Shown: positions 10,468-21,099 of the stretch, piece after piece
How positions within the stretch are numbered: position 1 is the first letter of the stretch
How the letters are laid out: every line of letters begins with the position of its first letter
Assembly (NCBI GenBank): GCA_002878375.1
Contig: NIRF01000013.1
Coordinates: 1-39,337 of the forward strand
Direction: 5' to 3'
Length of the DNA stretch: 39,337 bases
Origin: Dictyoglomus sp. NZ13-RE01
GTDB taxonomy: Bacteria; Dictyoglomota; Dictyoglomia; Dictyoglomales; Dictyoglomaceae
Program-made: the position numbers and the translations under genes
The notes under the pieces: model-generated
The model's input: the letters and a program-made list of their open reading frames with translations, nothing else
The model's database searches: none
What the model was told of the DNA's origin: nothing

Positions 10468-11331
10468 TTAGAAATTTTCAATTATTTCTCTTGCTTTTTT
10501 AATATGTTCAGGTGTTGTTCCACAGCATCCACCAATGTAATTTATACCTAATTTTAGCATTTTTACAACAAAATTCCCGAACTCTTCAGGTGTTCCTGGA
10601 TAAAGCGGTTTACCATCTACTATTTTGGGAATTCCTGCATTTGGCTGGATAAGTATTTTCTTATTAGTTTTTCTTCTGATTTCTTCAGCTACTTTTTCCA
10701 TTTCTTCGAAACCTTTTCCACAGTTTGATCCCAAAAATAATATCTCTTTATTTTCTACAGATTTTATAAACTTTTCTATGGTGTCTCCAAAGGATGTCCT
10801 GATCCCTGAAGGAGTAATTTCAAAACTCATAGTAATTCCAACCTTCATGTTAGCTTTTAAAGCAGATTCTAAGGCACATAAAGCCTCTTCTAAATAGATC
10901 ATTGTTTCAATCAATATGAAATCAACTCCTGCGGATTTTAAAATTTCAATTTGCTCTTCAAATACTTCTTTAGCCTCTTCAATAGTAATATCTCCAAAGG
11001 GCTCAAGCAATTCTCCTAAGGGACCTACTGAACCTGCAATTAATACTTTTCCTTTTGATGCTCTTTGGGCAATATCAACGGCTTTTTGATTTATCACTTT
11101 TATTTTTTTGTCCAGATCAAACCTTTTTAATCTTATTCTATTACCTCCAAAGGTATTTGTTTCTATGACCATTGCTCCAGAATTTATATAATCTTTATGA
11201 ATTTGTTCTACTATTTCACTATTTTCTAAATTCCAAAGTTCAGGAGGAGTTCCTAAAGGAAGACCTCTTCTTTGTAGTTCTGTTCCCATAGCTCCGTCAA
11301 ATAAAACATTACCATCAAATATCCGAAACAT
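10468..11331 (-). CDS. Homocysteine S-methyltransferase
   Basis: A barrel-fold methyltransferase of about 287 residues with the zinc-thiolate triad: LGSNCGKG in the middle and the C-terminal GGCCGTTPEHI. The N-terminus FDGAMGTELQRRGLPLGTPPELWN is the classic family start. It moves a methyl group (from S-methylmethionine, SAM or a methylated carrier domain) to homocysteine to form methionine. It lacks the folate or cobalamin domains of full MetH, matching the single-domain MmuM or the N-terminal module of split methionine synthases. It is the last gene of the hydrogenase operon, two bases after the hypE stop. ATG at 11331 is preferred over an in-frame TTG at 11340 that overlaps hypE. No functional link to hydrogenase is known. 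Confidence 0.85.
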   Translation of the reverse strand: MFRIFDGNVLFDGAMGTELQRRGLPLGTPPELWNLENSEIVEQIHKDYINSGAMVIETNTFGGNRIRLKRFDLDKKIKVINQKAVDIAQRASKGKVLIAGSVGPLGELLEPFGDITIEEAKEVFEEQIEILKSAGVDFILIETMIYLEEALCALESALKANMKVGITMSFEITPSGIRTSFGDTIEKFIKSVENKEILFLGSNCGKGFEEMEKVAEEIRRKTNKKILIQPNAGIPKIVDGKPLYPGTPEEFGNFVVKMLKLGINYIGGCCGTTPEHIKKAREIIENF

Positions 11332-11333
11332 AC

Positions 11334-12335
11334 TTAACAAATCCTCGGAAGTAATTCCTTTTTTAAAGTATCTAATATTCTCCTTGTACCAAGAGTAGTT
11401 CTTAAGTACACTTTTTCACCCCTTCCTTTTATTTCACCTATTATTCTTGCATCCTTACCTTCTGGAAATTGTCTTAGGAAGTTTACAATCTTTTCTCCTT
11501 CATTCTTAGAAGCAATAATTAATACTTTCCCTTCATTGGCAATATATAAAGGATCTATTCCTAATATCTCACTGGATTTTCTAACCCAATCTTTTATAGG
11601 CAAGCTTTCTTCAAATATTTCAATATCTACGTGGTATTTTTTAGAGACCTCATTTAAAGTTGTGGCTACACCGCCCCTAGTTGGATCCCGCATAAATTTA
11701 ACTCCTGTAAATTTGTCTAAAAGGGGTAAGGTAATACGGTAAAGAGGAGCAAGATCAGATTTTATTTCACTGCTTGTATTTATTCCTAATCTTTCCAACA
11801 TTATACATACACCATGCTCTCCTATTCCCCCATTTATAATAACTAAATCTCCTTCTTCTATTTTTCTTTCCCTCCAATCTCTATGTTCTTCTAATATCCC
11901 TATTCCTGCAGTATTTATATAAATATAGTCACCTTTCCCTTTTTCTACCACTTTTGTGTCCCCTGTAACAATCTTTATATTACAATCCAAAGCTGCGTCT
12001 CTCATAGATTCCAAGATTTTCCTAAAGTCTTTTAAGGGTAAGCCCTCCTCGATTATAAAGCTTACGCTCAGGTATAAAGGTGTTGCTCCCATAACAGAGA
12101 GATCATTTATAGTACCATAAATTGAGAGTTTTCCAATATCTCCGCCATTAAAAAATATAGGGGATATAACAAAAGAGTCTGTAGTAAAGGCTAACTTTCC
12201 CTTTATTTCAAGAATAGCAGAATCAAATAAATCTATTAAAATCTCATTGCCAAAATACTTCAAAATTTCCTCTTCTATTAATTTTCTTGTTTTTTCTCCG
12301 CCATTTCCATGTGAAAGCATTATAATTTCTTCCAT
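11334..12335 (-). CDS. hypE: Hydrogenase maturation protein HypE
   Basis: A PurM-like ATPase of 333 residues. The N-terminal LSHGNGGEKTRKLIEEEIL and FTTDSFVISPIFFNGGDIGKL motifs form the ATP site, and the protein ends in PRIC, whose terminal Cys receives carbamoyl from HypF and is dehydrated to thiocyanate, the source of the Fe-CN ligands. VTGDTKVVEKGKGD and DPTRGGVATTLNE are further family motifs. The start at 12335 lies one base after the hypD stop with GGGAGAG as SD; an ATG at 12350 would overlap hypD. It works with HypF, C and D encoded just upstream in this operon. Confidence 0.95.
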   Translation of the reverse strand: MEEIIMLSHGNGGEKTRKLIEEEILKYFGNEILIDLFDSAILEIKGKLAFTTDSFVISPIFFNGGDIGKLSIYGTINDLSVMGATPLYLSVSFIIEEGLPLKDFRKILESMRDAALDCNIKIVTGDTKVVEKGKGDYIYINTAGIGILEEHRDWRERKIEEGDLVIINGGIGEHGVCIMLERLGINTSSEIKSDLAPLYRITLPLLDKFTGVKFMRDPTRGGVATTLNEVSKKYHVDIEIFEESLPIKDWVRKSSEILGIDPLYIANEGKVLIIASKNEGEKIVNFLRQFPEGKDARIIGEIKGRGEKVYLRTTLGTRRILDTLKKELLPRIC

Positions 12336-12336
12336 G

Positions 12337-13392
12337 CTAATCTCTCCCATAGAGATAATAAGCAGAACAGGTTCCTTCTGAGGAAACCATACAAGGTCCT
12401 TTTGGATTTTCTGGAGTACATACTTTTTTATATAGTGGACATTGTGTAGGTTTTAATACGCCTCTTAAAACCTCTCCACATTTACACAAAGGATTATGTT
12501 TGACTTGTACCTTTATAGGAAATACTTTTCTTATATTGATGTCATCGTATTCCTCTTTCAATTCTAATCCACTATTCTTTAAGATCCCTAAACCTCTCCA
12601 GCTTGCATCAGCTATTTTAAACACGCGATACATGATATTGAGGGCTGTTAAGTTTCCCTCATCTGATACACTTCTTTTATATTCGTTAACTAATTTAGGC
12701 TTATTTTTTAATACCATTTCTGAGAGTAAATAAATCCCTTTTAATATGTCCATTGGTTCAAAACCAGTAATAACAAAGGGTATTTTATATTCTTCATATA
12801 TTTTTTCCCATCCTTTTTTCCCAATTATGGTAGATACATGCCCTGGTCCTATTATCCCATCTATTTTAACTTCTCCCATATCGAGAATTGCCTTCATTGC
12901 AGGAGGTGTTAACTTATTTAGAGATAAAAAGTAAAGATTTTTGAGATTTTCTTCCCTTATTTTTAATACCGTAAAGGCTAAAGATGGAGCTGTAGTTTCA
13001 AAGCCAATACCAATCAGTACATAATTTTTATTTTTATTCTCCTTTGCAATTTTTAATGCATCTAAGGGAGAATATACAACTTTTACTTCTTTTCCAATTG
13101 CTTTATAATAACTCAAGCTACCTTCACTTCCAGGCACATTCACCAAATCTCCAAAAGTTATTATTCCAAACCCTTCCTTCAATAAGGCTATTATGTAATC
13201 AATATCTTCTTCAGAGGTAACACAAACAGGGCATCCAGGACCAGATAATAAATTAATACTCTCAGGAAGGAGATCTCTAATACCAAAGCGAAATATTTCG
13301 TGGGTATGGGTGCCACAAAATTCCATTAGATTTATAGTACGATCTGAGTACTTTTTTAAAGCTTTAACAATTTCAACAACTTCTTTGCTCAT
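12337..13392 (-). CDS. hypD: Hydrogenase maturation protein HypD
   Basis: A 351-residue HypD. Diagnostic motifs are MEFCGTHTHEIFRFGIRDLL, LLSGPGCPVCVT (redox-active CPVC), IGIGFETTAPSLA and GFEPMDILKG. The C-terminus holds the four-cysteine set for the 4Fe-4S cluster (CKCGEVLRG, QCPLYKKVC, GPCMVSSEGTCSAYY). HypD with HypC forms the scaffold on which the Fe(CN)2CO unit is assembled. Its ATG overlaps the hypC stop (ATGA), so the two partners are translationally coupled, and production of HypD therefore depends on hypC staying in frame. Confidence 0.96.
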   Translation of the reverse strand: MSKEVVEIVKALKKYSDRTINLMEFCGTHTHEIFRFGIRDLLPESINLLSGPGCPVCVTSEEDIDYIIALLKEGFGIITFGDLVNVPGSEGSLSYYKAIGKEVKVVYSPLDALKIAKENKNKNYVLIGIGFETTAPSLAFTVLKIREENLKNLYFLSLNKLTPPAMKAILDMGEVKIDGIIGPGHVSTIIGKKGWEKIYEEYKIPFVITGFEPMDILKGIYLLSEMVLKNKPKLVNEYKRSVSDEGNLTALNIMYRVFKIADASWRGLGILKNSGLELKEEYDDINIRKVFPIKVQVKHNPLCKCGEVLRGVLKPTQCPLYKKVCTPENPKGPCMVSSEGTCSAYYLYGRD

Positions 13393-13601
13393 TTTTCCTC
13401 TAATAATTCTAATATTTCTTTTGCCTCATCCTCTCTAAGGACAGATATGGCAAAACCAGCGTGTACTATTACATAATCTCCTTCTTTAACCTCTGGAGTA
13501 AATATAGTACTAATTTCAAGGGTAGTCCCCCCCCCCATATCTACGTCCGCCATATTATTATCTTTCAATTTTAATACCTTTAAAGGATAACCTAAGCACA
13601 T
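13389..13601 (-). CDS. hypC: Hydrogenase maturation chaperone HypC
   Basis: A 70-residue protein starting MCLGYPLKVL, the Met-Cys N-terminus whose Cys2 binds the iron centre after Met removal. The small beta-barrel core (GDYVIVHAGFAISVL) is typical. HypC carries the Fe(CN)2CO unit with HypD and hands it to the large subunit. Unusually, codons 22-24 are three Gly GGG triplets, and with the last base of Met21 they form a run of ten G; the typical HypC at this point reads about FGG followed by basic residues. SD AGGAGG lies about ten bases upstream. The frame as given is intact. Confidence 0.93.
   Translation of the reverse strand: MCLGYPLKVLKLKDNNMADVDMGGGTTLEISTIFTPEVKEGDYVIVHAGFAISVLREDEAKEILELLEEK
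13527..13536 (-). repeat. G10 homopolymer inside hypC
   Basis: Ten consecutive C on the plus strand (G on the coding strand) at the codons for Met21-Gly-Gly-Gly. Losing one G leads to a stop about 20 codons on (ATG TAA); gaining one gives an almost immediate TGA. Such tracts mutate easily by slippage. It stands out in a window where coding DNA is AT-rich and glycine is usually GGA. Confidence 0.85.
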
Positions 13602-13615
13602 TTTTAATAAGCCTC

Positions 13616-15859
13616 CTATTCTCTTGCCATAATTACTTGTCCTAAAGATATTCCTCCATCATTTGTAGGAACTCTTCTATGAAGATACACTTTAAATCCC
13701 TTTTTTTCAAGAGCAGGAACAACTAAATTTATAAGTAATCTATTTTGAAAAACCCCTCCAGTAAACCCCACACTCCTAATGTTGAATTTTTCTCGAAACA
13801 TCTCAGCCATATTTAATATAACTTTAGCAATAGTATTATGAAATCTTCTCGCAACTATAGATCTATCAAAATAATTTTTCTCTTCAATAATTTTTTCAAT
13901 AGTAGGAAGTATATCTATTTCATACAAATCTTTTTTAACAATCTCAAAGGGATAAAATTCATTATCTTCTTTTTTCCAGGCATACGTTTCAAGTTCTATA
14001 GCTGCTTGTCCTTCATAGTCAATTTTTTCCCTTATCCCTAATAGAGCGGATACTAAATCAAATATTCTCCCACAAGAAGATGTATAAAATATTCCTACCT
14101 CATCCCTTATAAGTTTTTTAATAAGTTCTTTCTCAAGGAAATCAATATGAGGAAAGAGACTGTTTATTTCGCTCGGAATATATTTTGTAATATAGGAAAG
14201 TGCAATTCTTATAGGATTTTCTATGGAATAGTCTCCTCCAGCAATTGGAAAGTATTTAAAATGAGCAATTCTTTCTATTTTATCTAAGTTTCCAATAAAA
14301 ACTTCTCCACCCCAAATTTTTCCATCTTCCCCATAGCCAGTCCCATCAAAGGAAAAACCTATTATATCATCAGTAATATTATTATCTAAAAGTAGACTGT
14401 AAACGTGGGCTTTATGATGTTGAAGAGGAATAACCTCCATAAATTTTTCAAATCTTTGAGCAAATTCAGTGGATAAATATTGGGGGTGCAGATCATGCAC
14501 CAGGATTTCAGGTTCTATTCTAAAAAGCCTAATAAACTCATTGATGGTTTCTTCATAAACTTCTAAGGTTTTCTTATCTTTTAGGTCTCCAATATGTGGA
14601 CTTATGAATATATATTCTTCTTTACCAAGAGCAAATGTATTTTTTAATTCTCCACCTAATGCAAGAACAGGTCTCACTTTAATGGGTACCTTTATGGGAT
14701 CTGGAGCATATCCTCTTGCTCTCCTTACAAAATTTAATTGATTATTTTCGACAAATACAACACTATCATCTACTCTATGAATGATATTTCTATTGTGGAA
14801 AACAAAAATATCTGCAATATTTTTAAGCTCCTTTTTGCTTTCTTCATTGTCCTTGACTATTGGCTCATCAGTAACATTTCCACTGGTCATAATTAAAGGT
14901 TTATCAAAATAATCGAAGATTAAATAATGATAAGGAGCATAAGGAAGCATTACACCTAAGAACTCGTTATTAGGGGCTACATAAGGAGATATATCCTTTA
15001 GGTCTTTTATCCTCAAAAGAACTATAGGTCTTTCCTTAGATGTTAGTATACTCCTTTCTATATCATTTAGAAAACAATATTCTTCTATCATATCTAAATC
15101 TCTCATCATCAGAGCAAATGGTTTAAACTTTCTTCTTTTTCTCTCCCTCAATTTTAAAACAGCCATATCGCTAACAGCAGAACACATTAAATGAAATCCG
15201 CCAATTCCTTTAATAGCAATAATTTTATTTTCCTTCAAAAAATCAGAAATATCCTTAAAAATATTATCTGATTTAAGACCATCAATCCAAATATTTGGAC
15301 CACAGTTAAAGCAGGATATAGGTTGGGCATGAAAGCGTCTACTTAATGGATCATGATATTCTTTTTTGCATTCTTCACACATCTCAAAGATTTTCATACT
15401 GGTTTTGTCCCTATCATAGGGTAAATCTTCAATAATTGTGTATCTTGGACCACAGTTAGTACAATTTATAAAAGGATAGCTATATCTTCTGTCTTTTGGA
15501 TCTCTCATCTCTCTTAAGCAGTCATCGCAAATAGCTATATCAGGAGAAATAAAATTAAATCCTATATCCTCTTTACTTTCTATTATTGAAAAATCATCAT
15601 AAGATTTTTCATCTTCTATGATATCTATATGGATTTTCTCTATCCTTGATAAAGGGGGTGGAGAATTTTTCAAGATATCAATAAATTTTTTAATATTTTC
15701 TTCTTCTCCCTGAATAAGAATATCTACAGAACCGATAGAGTTATATATCCATCCTCGTAGGTCTAAAGACTTTGCAAGTTTATAAACAAAAGGTCTGAAA
15801 CCTACTCCTTGAACAATTCCATAAACTTTAATCCGATAGCTTATTACTGATTGTTTCAT
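13616..15859 (-). CDS. hypF: Carbamoyltransferase HypF
   Basis: A full-length 747-residue HypF. Domains in order: acylphosphatase (about 6-95, with VQGVGFRPFVYKLAKSLDLRGW); two HypF-type zinc fingers (about 108-185, CDDCLREMRDP...CTNCGP and CEECKKEYHDP...CFNCGP); a YrdC-like domain (about 198-385); and a Kae1/carbamoyltransferase domain to the end (VPLQHHKAHVYS, FSFDGTGYGEDGKIWGGEVF, GFTGGVFQNRLL). It makes carbamoyl-AMP from carbamoyl phosphate and ATP and passes carbamoyl to the HypE C-terminal Cys. The start overlaps the protease gene by 32 bases with no clear SD, so it is probably translated by coupling. Confidence 0.96.
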   Translation of the reverse strand: MKQSVISYRIKVYGIVQGVGFRPFVYKLAKSLDLRGWIYNSIGSVDILIQGEEENIKKFIDILKNSPPPLSRIEKIHIDIIEDEKSYDDFSIIESKEDIGFNFISPDIAICDDCLREMRDPKDRRYSYPFINCTNCGPRYTIIEDLPYDRDKTSMKIFEMCEECKKEYHDPLSRRFHAQPISCFNCGPNIWIDGLKSDNIFKDISDFLKENKIIAIKGIGGFHLMCSAVSDMAVLKLRERKRRKFKPFALMMRDLDMIEEYCFLNDIERSILTSKERPIVLLRIKDLKDISPYVAPNNEFLGVMLPYAPYHYLIFDYFDKPLIMTSGNVTDEPIVKDNEESKKELKNIADIFVFHNRNIIHRVDDSVVFVENNQLNFVRRARGYAPDPIKVPIKVRPVLALGGELKNTFALGKEEYIFISPHIGDLKDKKTLEVYEETINEFIRLFRIEPEILVHDLHPQYLSTEFAQRFEKFMEVIPLQHHKAHVYSLLLDNNITDDIIGFSFDGTGYGEDGKIWGGEVFIGNLDKIERIAHFKYFPIAGGDYSIENPIRIALSYITKYIPSEINSLFPHIDFLEKELIKKLIRDEVGIFYTSSCGRIFDLVSALLGIREKIDYEGQAAIELETYAWKKEDNEFYPFEIVKKDLYEIDILPTIEKIIEEKNYFDRSIVARRFHNTIAKVILNMAEMFREKFNIRSVGFTGGVFQNRLLINLVVPALEKKGFKVYLHRRVPTNDGGISLGQVIMARE

Positions 15860-16271
15860 TTATAAAGTTTTGAACAAACTTTTTGGCAAGATCTAAATTT
15901 TCTCTTGCTTTTTCAGAAAGTTCTTCCCCAAAATCAAAATCATACCCTCTTATAGACAATAGATAAAACTCTGGACTCCTTTTATATAAAGCATCGATCC
16001 AAAATAGAAGTTCTTCGCAGGTTAAGTGATGAGTCAATGGAGAAAATTTTTCCTCTTTTTCTATTTTTTTAAAAGAGATAGGACCTCCCTCAATAGAGGC
16101 ATCAACAAAGAGAACAATATCGTATTCTTTTAAAATATCTACTAAATCAATAGAAAGCTCCTGGACCTTTAGTTTATCAACATTTTCATTTATTTGGTCC
16201 AGGAGCTTTATTCCTAAGCCGTCGTCTCTTCTAAACTCGTTCCCAAATCCAACAATAAGTAAATTTTTCAA
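15828..16271 (-). CDS. Hydrogenase maturation endopeptidase (HycI/HyaD family)
   Basis: A 147-residue protease of the HybD/HycI family. It has the nickel-sensing GFGNEFRRDDGLGIKLL motif near the N-terminus (Asp/Glu ligands), DASIEGG near residue 65 and the HHLTCEELLF histidine region near 85. After nickel insertion it cuts the large subunit behind the DPCxxCxxH motif; the large subunit next door has a matching 25-residue tail. The start is TTG (16269-16271) overlapping the large subunit stop by four bases, with no strong SD. Confidence 0.88.
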   Translation of the reverse strand: MKNLLIVGFGNEFRRDDGLGIKLLDQINENVDKLKVQELSIDLVDILKEYDIVLFVDASIEGGPISFKKIEKEEKFSPLTHHLTCEELLFWIDALYKRSPEFYLLSIRGYDFDFGEELSEKARENLDLAKKFVQNFINETISNKLSD

Positions 16272-17692
16272 TCTCTGACTACGGATTCTAATAAGTTTCC
16301 AGAGTTATCATAAATTTCAACTACAATGGGCATTTTCCCAATGGCATGGGTAGAGCAGGACAAACATGGATCGTAACACCTTATGGCTCCTTCAACCCTA
16401 TTTAGCATACCTTCTTTTAAGTTTTTCCCATCCACAAAAGCCTTTGCTACCTCTTCCACAGCTTTACTCATAGCCCAGTTATTATGACCTGTGGATACGA
16501 TCAAGTTCACCTTTTCAATGGTACCTTTCTCATCAACCCAATAATGATGTATCAAAGTTCCTCTTGGAGCTTCAACCACACCAATTCCTTCCTCATTACT
16601 AACGTTTCCTAAGACAAGTACATCTTGAGACATAACATCAGGATCATCTAAAATCTCTCTTGTTCTTTCTAAAGCGTATAGTGTTTCAATAAGTCTTGCA
16701 TAGTGATAATAAATAGAGCCTTCTACTGGTTTTCCATATCCAATAGCTTTAAACTTCTTAAATTCCTCATTAGCAAGAGGTGTGCTTATCTTGTCTGCTA
16801 CATTCAGTCTTGCTAATGGTCCAACTCTATAGACTCCATCAGGATAGCCTAACGGTTTATAGAAGGGGAATTTGAGATAACTCCAATCTTCTACTCTCTC
16901 TCCAATATATTTAAGATAGTATTTACCTTTAAACTCTTTTAAAATATTTCCATCTTTATCCATAAATCTGATTTTTCCATCATAGAGCTCTAAGGAACCG
17001 TCATCTTTTACTAATCCCATGTATCCAGTGGAGAAGGATGCAAATTTGTTACAAAGATCTCTATTTTTCTCTATATAATCCTCTGCTATCTTTATTCCCT
17101 CTTTTATGTAGGATATCATTTCATCTATTCCACTCATTATCTCATCCCTTGCAGAGGGAGAAAGAGCATTATTTACACCGCCTGGAACGGCAAAAGTAGG
17201 ATGGATTCTTCTCCCTGCTACTAATTCTATTATTCTTTGTCCATATTTTCTGAGCTTTACTGCTTTTAGGGCAAGCTCAGGATTTTCCTGTATTAAACCA
17301 ACTACATTCCTAATTCTTGGATCTGCATCCCATCCTAAAATAAGATCAGGACCAGCAAGCTCAAAGAAATGCATGGAATGAGATTGAATTATCTGTCCCA
17401 TATGAATTAATTCTCTGAGGAGTTTTGCTGTTTTAGGTATATCAACTCCCAGAATATCGTCACAGGCTTTTGCTGAAGCAAGATGGTGACTTATAGGACA
17501 TATTCCACATATTCTTTCAGTAATGACAGGCATTTCTGAGAAGTGTCTACCCTCAGAGAATTTTTCAAAGCCTCTAAATTGATCTACATGAAAATAAGCA
17601 TTCTTAACCTTTCCATCCTCATCCAAATGTATAGTTACTCTTGCATGTCCTTCTATTCTTGTAACTGGACTTATTGTAATCTTATTCTCCAT
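16268..17692 (-). CDS. NiFe hydrogenase large subunit, group 3 (HoxH-like)
   Basis: A 474-residue catalytic subunit. Nickel-iron ligands are the two classic motifs: RICGICP (Cys62, Cys65) and DPCLSCSTH (Cys443, Cys446, ending at His449). A 25-residue tail follows His449 and should be removed by the maturation protease encoded next. VTRIEGHARV at the N-terminus is the L0 motif. Together with the 180-residue small subunit and NuoG-like subunit this fits soluble group 3 enzymes that couple H2 to NAD(P) or another cytosolic carrier. ATG at 17692 has AGAGAGGTG upstream and is preferred over the ATG at 17713, which overlaps the small subunit gene and lacks an SD. Confidence 0.93.
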   Translation of the reverse strand: MENKITISPVTRIEGHARVTIHLDEDGKVKNAYFHVDQFRGFEKFSEGRHFSEMPVITERICGICPISHHLASAKACDDILGVDIPKTAKLLRELIHMGQIIQSHSMHFFELAGPDLILGWDADPRIRNVVGLIQENPELALKAVKLRKYGQRIIELVAGRRIHPTFAVPGGVNNALSPSARDEIMSGIDEMISYIKEGIKIAEDYIEKNRDLCNKFASFSTGYMGLVKDDGSLELYDGKIRFMDKDGNILKEFKGKYYLKYIGERVEDWSYLKFPFYKPLGYPDGVYRVGPLARLNVADKISTPLANEEFKKFKAIGYGKPVEGSIYYHYARLIETLYALERTREILDDPDVMSQDVLVLGNVSNEEGIGVVEAPRGTLIHHYWVDEKGTIEKVNLIVSTGHNNWAMSKAVEEVAKAFVDGKNLKEGMLNRVEGAIRCYDPCLSCSTHAIGKMPIVVEIYDNSGNLLESVVRD

Positions 17693-17705
17693 AGAATTCA
17701 CCTCT

Positions 17706-18248
17706 CTATTCATACTTTAATAAATCTCCAGAAAGAACTGGAGTTCTTCCTTCTAAAATTTCCTTTAATACATAGTAAATAGCATCTGCAGATGGTGGAC
17801 ATCCTGGAATATAAAAATCTACCTTAATTACTTCATTCACTGCCTTTGTTTTTGGTAAATGTTTACCAATTTCTTCGGATGTTGGAATCTTACCCTGCAC
17901 AGTACTTTCAGTGGTTATATATCCTCTTTCTAACAGTTCTTCTCTGGTGAAATAATTTCTCATTGTAGGGATTCCACCAAATACTGCACAATCTCCAATA
18001 GCAACAATAAACTTACATTTTTCTCTCATCATTTTAACTTCTTCCTCATGATGATCTGTTGCAATAGCTCCCTCAATAATTCCTATATCGGTATCTTCAT
18101 CGGGGACCTTTAGATCAGTAATAGGAGTAGCATTTAATTCTAATCCTTTATTTATAAGCTCTACTAATCTCTCATCCATATCTAAAAAGGACATATGACA
18201 TCCTGAACAGCCCTCACACCATATTGAAGCTACTTTTAGCTTTGCCAT
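17706..18248 (-). CDS. NiFe hydrogenase small subunit (HoxY-like)
   Basis: A compact 180-residue small subunit. The proximal 4Fe-4S cluster ligands are visible: Cys14 and Cys17 in CEGCSGCHMSFLD, Cys87 in IGDCAVFGG and Cys150 in IPGCPPSAD. An additional Cys11 precedes the motif. There is no signal peptide and no C-terminal medial/distal cluster domain, so the enzyme is cytosolic and passes electrons directly to the iron-sulfur subunit encoded upstream (18266-19948). Size and motifs match HoxY and MvhG-type subunits. Confidence 0.93.
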   Translation of the reverse strand: MAKLKVASIWCEGCSGCHMSFLDMDERLVELINKGLELNATPITDLKVPDEDTDIGIIEGAIATDHHEEEVKMMREKCKFIVAIGDCAVFGGIPTMRNYFTREELLERGYITTESTVQGKIPTSEEIGKHLPKTKAVNEVIKVDFYIPGCPPSADAIYYVLKEILEGRTPVLSGDLLKYE

Positions 18249-18265
18249 ATTCTCACCTCACTATT

Positions 18266-19948
18266 TTACATGATTTTCTCAACTTTTCCCGAGATATCTA
18301 ATAAAATCTCTCTTAAGTCCACCACATCATAATTGCTTCTTAACACTTTTTGTCTTACCAGTTTCTTGCCTTCAAGGTTGTAGAAGGTTCCTTCTTTTTC
18401 AAAACCATTGCTAATTCCAACAACCAAGTTTGCCTTGTTTAACACCTCGTGATTATATGGTGTAAAAATAACAAGAAATGTATTATTAAGATTCATATTG
18501 TTTAATCCATCTAAGTTTTTGGCAAAAACAAATACATTTTTAGCATGTTTCTCTTCATGAGGAATATTGAGTTTATTTAAACCTACTGTATTTGTCTCTT
18601 TTGGTAGCCATAAAAACTTAAAGTTATCATTAGCTTTTAGTATTTTAGCCTCTTCATCTTTTAAATCCTTAAAGATGACTGCTACATTATTCTCGTTTTT
18701 CAAAGAACTAATTGCCAGATCTAAATCCTTTCTGTTATATGTATGATCTGCAATCTTATTTAAACTATTCTCTTTCTCATCAACTAATACTAATTTCTTT
18801 TTATTTCCTATAACGTTTCTCTTTACAAAGGAGCCAATAGTACCAAACTCTTTATTCAAATCTACCCCAATAACTAAGTAGGCGTCCATGTTATCTAAGT
18901 CTTTTATAGAAATATTAGATTCTATTGGAGAATTATTGGGATAAAGAGAATAAACCTTGTCTTTAAATATCTCTTTTACTAATTCCAGCTCTTCGTTTAA
19001 TAGAGAGCCATCTACATAGGCTACTACATCATCAGACAACTTGTTCTTTAATATTTCCTTAAGAATTTCCCTTGATATTCTTCTAAAACCAAAATCATCT
19101 CTTAGTCTAATTCCGGAAACTCTTTCCTTCTCATCATATAATGCTAAATATCTTCCATTTTTACAAAGTACTCCCTGTGATACATCAGAGTTCCAATCCC
19201 CATATATTTTTACTATAAAGTTTGCTCCTTTCTTTTTGTAAATCTCAATTCCACAACCTACAGAGCATTGGTCACAATTTGCATATATAATATCTGATTG
19301 AACCTCTCTTCCTAAATAAGCGGACCTTTTATCTAAAATAGCACCTGTAGGACATACTTGGGCGCATAAACCACAAGAGACGCAGGAGGATTTACCAAGA
19401 GGTACATCCATGTCCGCAATAATCATTGTATCAATTCCTCTTTCCATTTCTCCTAATACATAATGTCCAGCAACCTCAGAACATGCTCTTACACATCTTC
19501 TACATAGGACACAGCGATTATGATCCATTAGGATATAATCATGAGAGTTGTCTACAGGAAACTTTCTTTCGTAGGTAGGAAACTCGAAGTGATCGAGACC
19601 AAATTCATACCCTAAGTCCTGAAGCTCGCACTCTCCTGTAACTTCACAGTACATACAGTAGTGGTTTCTTTCACTAAATAGTAGTTGCAAAACTAACTTT
19701 CTTGAATTTACTACGTTTGGTGTGTCTGTTTGTATATCCATATTAGGTTCTACAGGTGTAGTACATGCAGTTTTAAGTACTCCTCGGTCTTCAACAACAC
19801 ATAGTCTACAAGAACCTTGGGGTGAAAGGTGCTCAAAATGACAAAGTACTGGCACATGAATGCCTAACTCATTTAAAACCTGAAGGACAGTTTTACCTGG
19901 GGATACTTCAACCTCATTTCCATTAATCTTAATTTTAAACTTGTCCAT
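18266..19948 (-). CDS. NuoG/HoxU-like multi-cluster iron-sulfur subunit with long C-terminal domain
   Basis: A 560-residue protein. An N-terminal 2Fe-2S domain uses Cys36, 47, 50 and 62. A His96/Cys98/Cys101/Cys107 set matches the complex I N5 cluster (HYCMYCEVTGEC). Two 4Fe-4S motifs follow (Cys146/149/152/156 and Cys189/192/195/199). Cys225/228/232 and Cys262 resemble the N7 site or the 4Fe-4S of molybdopterin enzymes. Residues 270-560 look like a shortened, cofactor-free molybdopterin-oxidoreductase domain. HoxU normally ends near residue 240, so this is closer to a truncated NuoG. It would link the hydrogenase to a flavin diaphorase, but no NuoE/NuoF-like gene is in this window. Confidence 0.88.
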   Translation of the reverse strand: MDKFKIKINGNEVEVSPGKTVLQVLNELGIHVPVLCHFEHLSPQGSCRLCVVEDRGVLKTACTTPVEPNMDIQTDTPNVVNSRKLVLQLLFSERNHYCMYCEVTGECELQDLGYEFGLDHFEFPTYERKFPVDNSHDYILMDHNRCVLCRRCVRACSEVAGHYVLGEMERGIDTMIIADMDVPLGKSSCVSCGLCAQVCPTGAILDKRSAYLGREVQSDIIYANCDQCSVGCGIEIYKKKGANFIVKIYGDWNSDVSQGVLCKNGRYLALYDEKERVSGIRLRDDFGFRRISREILKEILKNKLSDDVVAYVDGSLLNEELELVKEIFKDKVYSLYPNNSPIESNISIKDLDNMDAYLVIGVDLNKEFGTIGSFVKRNVIGNKKKLVLVDEKENSLNKIADHTYNRKDLDLAISSLKNENNVAVIFKDLKDEEAKILKANDNFKFLWLPKETNTVGLNKLNIPHEEKHAKNVFVFAKNLDGLNNMNLNNTFLVIFTPYNHEVLNKANLVVGISNGFEKEGTFYNLEGKKLVRQKVLRSNYDVVDLREILLDISGKVEKIM

Positions 19949-19969: not shown

Positions 19970-20704
19970 TTATATTAGTTGAGATATAATTTCTTCCATT
20001 CTAACACTTAAATCAGATTCAAAAAAGAACTTACTGTTATTAATAAAATCATCCATGTTCTGTGAATAAGGCACATACCCTAAATACTTAACAGATAGGT
20101 TTTCGCATTTTGTCTTAACATAATCATCTTCTTTTTTAGATTTCATATTTTCTATGAGACCTAATATGGGCAAATTTAAACCATTTAGAATCTTAATAAG
20201 TTTTTCTACAGTTTCCATAGAAAGTCTTGATGGGGTAGAAACAAGAAGAAATTTTGCCTTTTTTATATATCTGATGAGTTCTAAAAAAACCTCTCCCATG
20301 CCTGGTGGAGTATCTATGATTAAATAATCCAATGGATCCCACTTTGTAATTGTAAAGATCTCCAATATTGTATCTGTTATTTCCTTTCCTCTCATAGTTA
20401 ATGGCTTATTTTCTGTAAAAAAGACAATAGACATAAAATCAATATTTTCCACCTTTACAGGTTTTATGCCATAATCTTCTAATGGTTTAGCATTATCTAC
20501 GCCTAATATTAAATGGCAAGTAGGTCCATACAGATCTAAATCCAATAAGCCTACTTTAAACCCCTTTTTACTTAAAATAAGACTTATAAATGTAGAAAGC
20601 GTGCTTTTCCCTACACCACCTTTTCCACTTGATATAGCCCATATCTCTTTTACACTTTTAAGTCTCTCGTCAATTATTGATATTCTTGGATCAATAAGAT
20701 TCAT
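19970..20704 (-). CDS. Mrp/MinD-type ATPase, probable HypB substitute (mmHypB)
   Basis: A 244-residue P-loop ATPase with the deviant Walker A SGKGGVGKST (residues 26-35, signature lysine first), LLDLDLYGPTCHLILG and IIDTPPGMGEVFLEL motifs of the Mrp/NBP35 group. The C-terminal CxxC pair used by Mrp iron-sulfur carriers is absent (the matching stretch is ENMKSKKEDDYVKTKCE). The gene begins in the stop codon of hypA (ATGA) and no SIMIBI GTPase HypB is in the operon. Thermococcus is known to use a Mrp/MinD-type ATPase paired with HypA for nickel delivery; context and sequence suggest the same job here. ATG at 20704 with AAAGGA is chosen over an in-frame TTG at 20722. Confidence 0.8.
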   Translation of the reverse strand: MNLIDPRISIIDERLKSVKEIWAISSGKGGVGKSTLSTFISLILSKKGFKVGLLDLDLYGPTCHLILGVDNAKPLEDYGIKPVKVENIDFMSIVFFTENKPLTMRGKEITDTILEIFTITKWDPLDYLIIDTPPGMGEVFLELIRYIKKAKFLLVSTPSRLSMETVEKLIKILNGLNLPILGLIENMKSKKEDDYVKTKCENLSVKYLGYVPYSQNMDDFINNSKFFFESDLSVRMEEIISQLI

Positions 20705-21099
20705 TTTATATCCTTTATCCAAACGCCACGTCCCTCTTTAATATCAAAGTCTGGACTTCCACATTTTGGACAACGAATATAAACATGGATGGTTTCAGGT
20801 ATAAAGTGTATTGCTTCTTTTTCTTCACCACTTAATTTATCTAAGCTATCTTTGTAACTCCATTGATATCCACAAGAGTTACAATGAAGAAGGGCAGGGA
20901 ACATTTCAAAATTAAATTTAGCATTTTCTAATATGGTACCTTTAGACAGTTCCTTTAAGGCAAAGTCAAAGACTTCTAAGTCTATTTGTTGTATTTCTCC
21001 AATTTTTAGATAAACTTCTTTCACCCTACTCAGGTTTTTCTCCTGAGTTAAGTTTATAGATGTTTTAATAATTGTTTCTGCTAATGCCCACTCATGCAT
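20701..21099 (-). CDS. hypA: Nickel metallochaperone HypA
   Basis: Starting at 21099 the protein begins MHEWALAETI, the conserved nickel-binding Met-His-Glu N-terminus; an upstream ATG (21171) would add 24 residues and bury it, so that start is rejected. The zinc hairpin is LHCNSCGYQW and IRCPKCGSPD, separated by a longer insert than usual (about 40 residues). HypA delivers nickel to the hydrogenase large subunit with a nucleotide-hydrolysing partner. It is the first gene of the operon, about ten bases from the predicted transcription start and with no clear SD, so initiation may be nearly leaderless. Confidence 0.93.
   Translation of the reverse strand: MHEWALAETIIKTSINLTQEKNLSRVKEVYLKIGEIQQIDLEVFDFALKELSKGTILENAKFNFEMFPALLHCNSCGYQWSYKDSLDKLSGEEKEAIHFIPETIHVYIRCPKCGSPDFDIKEGRGVWIKDIK

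Follow-up and report, generated by a model that had tools for sequence, protein, structure and literature searches.

How does a bacterium load nickel into its hydrogenase when its hydrogenase operon holds hypA, hypC, hypD, hypE and hypF, but no hypB? The question is raised by a 39,337-nucleotide stretch of Dictyoglomus sp. NZ13-RE01 DNA (hereafter, the window), which makes up the entire contig G000:C13; the genome measures 1.93 Mb. Its minus strand carries an 11-gene [NiFe]-hydrogenase/hyp operon, whose genes overlap or are separated by no more than about 30 bases. At the head of the operon are hypA (20701..21099), encoding a HypA of the long, Thermococcus form (132 aa), and an ATPase gene (19970..20704, 244 aa). 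They are followed by the genes of a NuoG/HoxU-like iron-sulfur subunit (18266..19948, 560 aa, recognised by NuoG and HoxU models), a VhuG-like [NiFe] hydrogenase small subunit (17706..18248, PF01058), a VhuA-like large subunit with a DPCxxCxxH motif and a C-terminal extension (16268..17713, the only PF00374 open reading frame of the genome), and a hydrogenase maturation protease (15828..16271, TIGR00072, 65.9 bits). The remaining genes are hypF (13616..15859, TIGR00143, 827.8 bits), hypC (13389..13601, TIGR00074, 66.9 bits), hypD (12337..13392, PF01924, 471.9 bits), hypE (11334..12350, TIGR02124, 420.1 bits) and, as the last of the run and overlapping hypE, a homocysteine S-methyltransferase-like gene (10468..11340, PF02574, 245.4 bits). 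In a related genus (L004–L007), a gene of the latter type lies immediately 5′ of hypA. The gene content given by the original prediction, with all these hyp genes and no hypB, was thus borne out by NCBIfam and Pfam models.

The lack of hypB extends from the operon to the whole genome. Family (profile) searches of the genome, which is 99.99% complete, with TIGR00073, a model that recognises E. coli HypB and detects this protein in 138 of 386 sampled bacterial genomes, gave no match, and no canonical hypB was found. Two weak matches to the cobW domain turned out to be Der and Ffh. HypB was likewise below the cut-off in all 24 genomes searched, most of them carriers of the ATPase described below.

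The place of the GTPase is very probably taken by the second gene of the operon, which we identify as a bacterial Mrp/MinD-type HypB (mmHypB), predicted to hydrolyse ATP. The gene starts within the ATGA that also contains the hypA stop (20701..20704), and a similarly tight coupling is seen in most homologous loci. Translation from the ATG at 20704 gives the N-terminus MNLIDPR, comparable to MNAIDPR of Thermococcus kodakarensis HypB; the TTG at 20722 proposed by the ORF caller was rejected as lying six codons too early. The protein has a deviant Walker A motif, SGKGGVGKS (residues 26–34, 20603..20629), and a Walker B region, YLIIDTPPG (residues 127–135 with Asp131, 20300..20326), and is devoid of CxxC, so that the features originally ascribed to it, including the overlap with the hypA stop, all proved correct. 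The Walker A lysines and the A′ and Walker B aspartates (K28, K33, D55, D57 and D131) are invariant across 69 mmHypB sequences.

The nearest solved relative of this ATPase by sequence is T. kodakarensis HypB (PDB 3vx3), which it matches over the full length with 222.8 bits and 43% identity, as compared with 113.6 bits for the best iron-sulfur Mrp structure. Its predicted model, for which 25 window and locus sequences were used (pLDDT 90.9, pTM 0.90), pointed to the same protein: the 12 best PDB matches found by Foldseek were all T. kodakarensis HypB or HypAB chains, with 5aun_B the best of them (E 1.2e-28, TM 0.91) and ApbC next at 7e-17. T. kodakarensis mmHypB (PDB 3vx3, 5aun–5auq) thus shares with the window protein its fold, at a TM of about 0.9, and its ATPase motifs; it likewise is encoded next to hypA, in a genome without HypB, and is paired with a HypA that has MHE and His98. 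The differences are that here the host is a bacterium, that the operon includes a NuoG/HoxU-like subunit and a Vhu-like hydrogenase, and that the activity is a predicted one. The GTPase HypB of the SIMIBI class (TIGR00073, E. coli HypB) presumably does the same job, the nucleotide-driven loading of nickel together with HypA, whereas the window protein belongs to another branch of P-loop NTPases (MinD/Mrp, using ATP) and has no match to TIGR00073. Counted against the mmHypB reading is a nucleotide-exchange step reportedly proposed in archaea by Sasaki in 2013, for whose partner no counterpart is named here.

As the ATPase falls into PF10609, a Pfam family common to it and to iron-sulfur Mrp proteins, it could also be read as an iron-sulfur carrier of the Mrp/ApbC/NBP35 type that sits in the operon by chance and supplies clusters to the hydrogenase subunits. 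Such carriers share with it the deviant Walker A motif too, and the best-scoring NCBIfam models are MrpORP and ApbC. However, both scores are far under the respective cut-offs (161 of 450 and 126 of 348 bits), and no other NCBIfam model reached its cut-off, which makes automatic annotation of this gene likely to mislead. In addition, the cluster-binding CxxC is present in none of the mmHypB sequences compared, whereas the separate Mrp of the same genome (G000:C9, L012) has CPYC. In a tree of 56 sequences, a 100/100 branch separated the mmHypB proteins, that of the window among them, from every Mrp protein, and the same split was obtained in a tree of 104 sequences (SH-aLRT 100). The tree of the ATPase with archaeal mmHypB and bacterial Mrp proteins, which had been suggested as a check, therefore places it with the archaeal mmHypB proteins. 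Together with an adjacency to hypA that was never seen for Mrp, these data largely refute the iron-sulfur carrier, which we regard as very improbable, and leave mmHypB as the identity of the ATPase.

The HypA encoded next to it is of the matching type. It scored above the cut-off of the long-form model NF003008/PRK03824 (194.9 vs. 125 bits) and below that of the canonical TIGR00100 (80.5 vs. 88.1 bits), and its sole PDB match was T. kodakarensis HypA, aligned over residues 1–132 with no gap. In the complex of T. kodakarensis HypA and HypB, the N-terminal MHE and His98 make up an induced nickel site (PMC7055735). Both are present in the window HypA, the MHE motif at 21091..21099 and His98, which aligns gaplessly with its T. 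kodakarensis equivalent, at 20806..20808. This histidine is part of, or adjoins, a segment missing from E. coli HypA. No variation was seen in His2, Glu3, His98, Pro101 or the four zinc cysteines among the 67 mmHypB-linked HypAs compared, from archaea and bacteria. The pairwise distances of HypA and mmHypB are correlated (r 0.82), as would be expected anyway of adjacent, co-inherited genes, and the correlation is therefore not taken to prove that the two proteins interact. Thus, sequence, tree and HypA type all support the original idea that an archaeal-style Mrp/MinD-type HypB is paired with hypA in a bacterium.

This pairing is a property of the phylum. All seven Dictyoglomota genomes carry mmHypB, six of them as a full-length gene, and wherever the contig is long enough the other genomes of the phylum have the same order of hypA, mmhypB and the NuoG/HoxU-like gene. 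The recurrence of this order shows that it is not an effect of chance or assembly. The window mmHypB is about 56% identical to those of its genus mates (G005, G006), no closer than to those of the sister genus, and in G005, G006 and G001 hypD and hypA are on different contigs; either the Dictyoglomus operon has been rearranged or the mmHypB gene is fast-evolving.

Among the 386 bacterial genomes, 14 scored 245 bits or more against the mmHypB profile, and it was these same 14 that exceeded the long-HypA cut-off. Three further bacteria (G076, G095 and G363), whose mmHypB proteins are divergent and scored little or no better than Mrp, were counted as carriers on the basis of the tree, the adjacency to HypA and the missing CxxC. 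At their loci (L113, L116 and L117), this strongly divergent mmHypB is accompanied by a shorter HypA whose sequence starts with MHEF, and the HypD proteins of G076 and G095 group with those of Dictyoglomota (100/100). In total, mmHypB was found in 17 of the 386 bacterial genomes, from nine families and including all Dictyoglomota, and none of these 17 is among the 138 with HypB, an exclusion with a Fisher p of 5e-4 when kinship is ignored. In archaea, at least 100 of 397 genomes carry mmHypB (at least 108 match at E 1e-60). hypA adjoins mmhypB in essentially every locus examined, bacterial or archaeal, the one exception among the archaeal loci being truncated, and it adjoins no mrp. Some archaeal genomes contain two hypA–mmhypB pairs (L203/L204, L206/L207, L208/L209).

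Such a distribution, with at least 100 of 397 archaeal genomes as carriers against 17 of 386 bacterial ones, favours the transfer of mmHypB from archaea. In the best trees, the bacterial mmHypB proteins are nested within the archaeal ones at two or more positions: those of Dictyoglomota are joined in a clade by the protein of a single further bacterium (G167; 100/99), and most of the remaining ones group with Methanophagales (98/95). The alternative that the HypA–mmHypB pair is an old system of archaea and bacteria, which most bacteria have since lost, and not an acquisition from archaea, would fit its presence in all Dictyoglomota. It is also compatible with the AU test on the full set of sequences, which rejected neither a single bacterial clade (p 0.44) nor a single archaeal one (p 0.17), and with the borderline result for Dictyoglomota branching first on the reduced set (p 0.053). 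On that reduced set, however, both one-clade trees were weakly rejected (p 0.044 for the bacterial and p 0.020 for the archaeal clade), and the grouping with Methanophagales likewise speaks against such an origin, which we consider less likely than not. As the outcome of the AU tests shifts between borderline and non-significant with the choice of taxa, we make no strong claims on the number or direction of transfers, which are weakly resolved.

The HypD proteins of mmHypB bacteria mostly group with the HypD of bacteria that have HypB, away from those of most archaeal mmHypB genomes, with the root of this tree uncertain. This grouping hints that the HypAB pair may have moved on its own, and as such it also counts against an old shared system. 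HypA–mmHypB could be a nickel-loading cassette capable of transfer, which reached bacteria on two or more occasions and replaced GTPase HypB and short HypA jointly while the other Hyp machinery stayed bacterial, with bacteria keeping either type but not both. We propose this tentatively, giving it slightly less than an even chance.

The mechanism by which mmHypB would act in Dictyoglomus can be sketched from the T. kodakarensis HypAB work summarised in PMC7055735 and PMC12134894. By analogy, an ATP-bound dimer of mmHypB would bind two HypA molecules to give a 2:2 complex, and in it mmHypB would reshape HypA so that MHE and His98 come together as a nickel site of high affinity. The binding of nickel, together with the hydrolysis of ATP, would then release Ni-HypA, which would pass its nickel to the large subunit (16268..17713) once HypCDEF have placed Fe(CN)2CO, and the protease (15828..16271) would trim the large subunit last. 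Every catalytic and ligand residue needed for this scheme is present in the window HypA and mmHypB. The traits of the mmHypB class, ATP hydrolysis and a 2:2 complex with HypA that has nanomolar nickel affinity, are expected of the window protein by the same analogy.

Since CooC is also a nickel ATPase of the Mrp/MinD family (PMC6006190), the ATPase might be thought to serve carbon monoxide dehydrogenase (CODH) or another nickel enzyme and not the hydrogenase. Yet CODH, the client of CooC, was found neither in the window genome nor in the other Dictyoglomota genomes searched (TIGR01702), the gene overlaps hypA and stands at the head of a hydrogenase operon, and HypB is its best match both in the PDB and by fold, all of which renders a CooC-type function extremely improbable. 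With a single [NiFe] hydrogenase and no CODH in the genome, the client of mmHypB is clear: it is the large subunit of this operon.

The kind of protein described here is known, but finding it as the regular HypB throughout a bacterial phylum is apparently new. Reviews to 2025 give an ATP-hydrolysing HypB as a trait of some archaea (PMC12134894), and no report of a bacterial ATPase-type HypB was found in the open literature, a scope that leaves out the original reports on T. kodakarensis mmHypB (Sasaki 2013; Watanabe 2015). mmHypB, with its matching HypA, is the only HypB of the whole phylum Dictyoglomota and of several other bacterial families. The genome paper of D. turgidum described a "partial hypA operon" (PMC5167688), and the mmHypB ATPase is probably its missing part. 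This also corrects an annotation trap, in which database models name mmHypB as MrpORP or ApbC-like, and it means that a defect in nickel insertion inferred from a missing hypB is wrong in organisms with mmHypB. Moreover, nature here provides a test of which features of HypA serve to bind a GTPase partner and which an ATPase partner.

The hydrogenase itself (16268..19948) looks mixed. No HoxF-like NADH subunit is encoded after the NuoG/HoxU-like gene in the window operon, and the large and small subunits are nearest to VhuA and VhuG of the F420-non-reducing hydrogenase of methanogens, here paired with the NuoG/HoxU-like subunit. The latter has a degenerate molybdopterin-type C-terminus, and a gene of its type directly follows mmhypB also in L110, L113 and L117.
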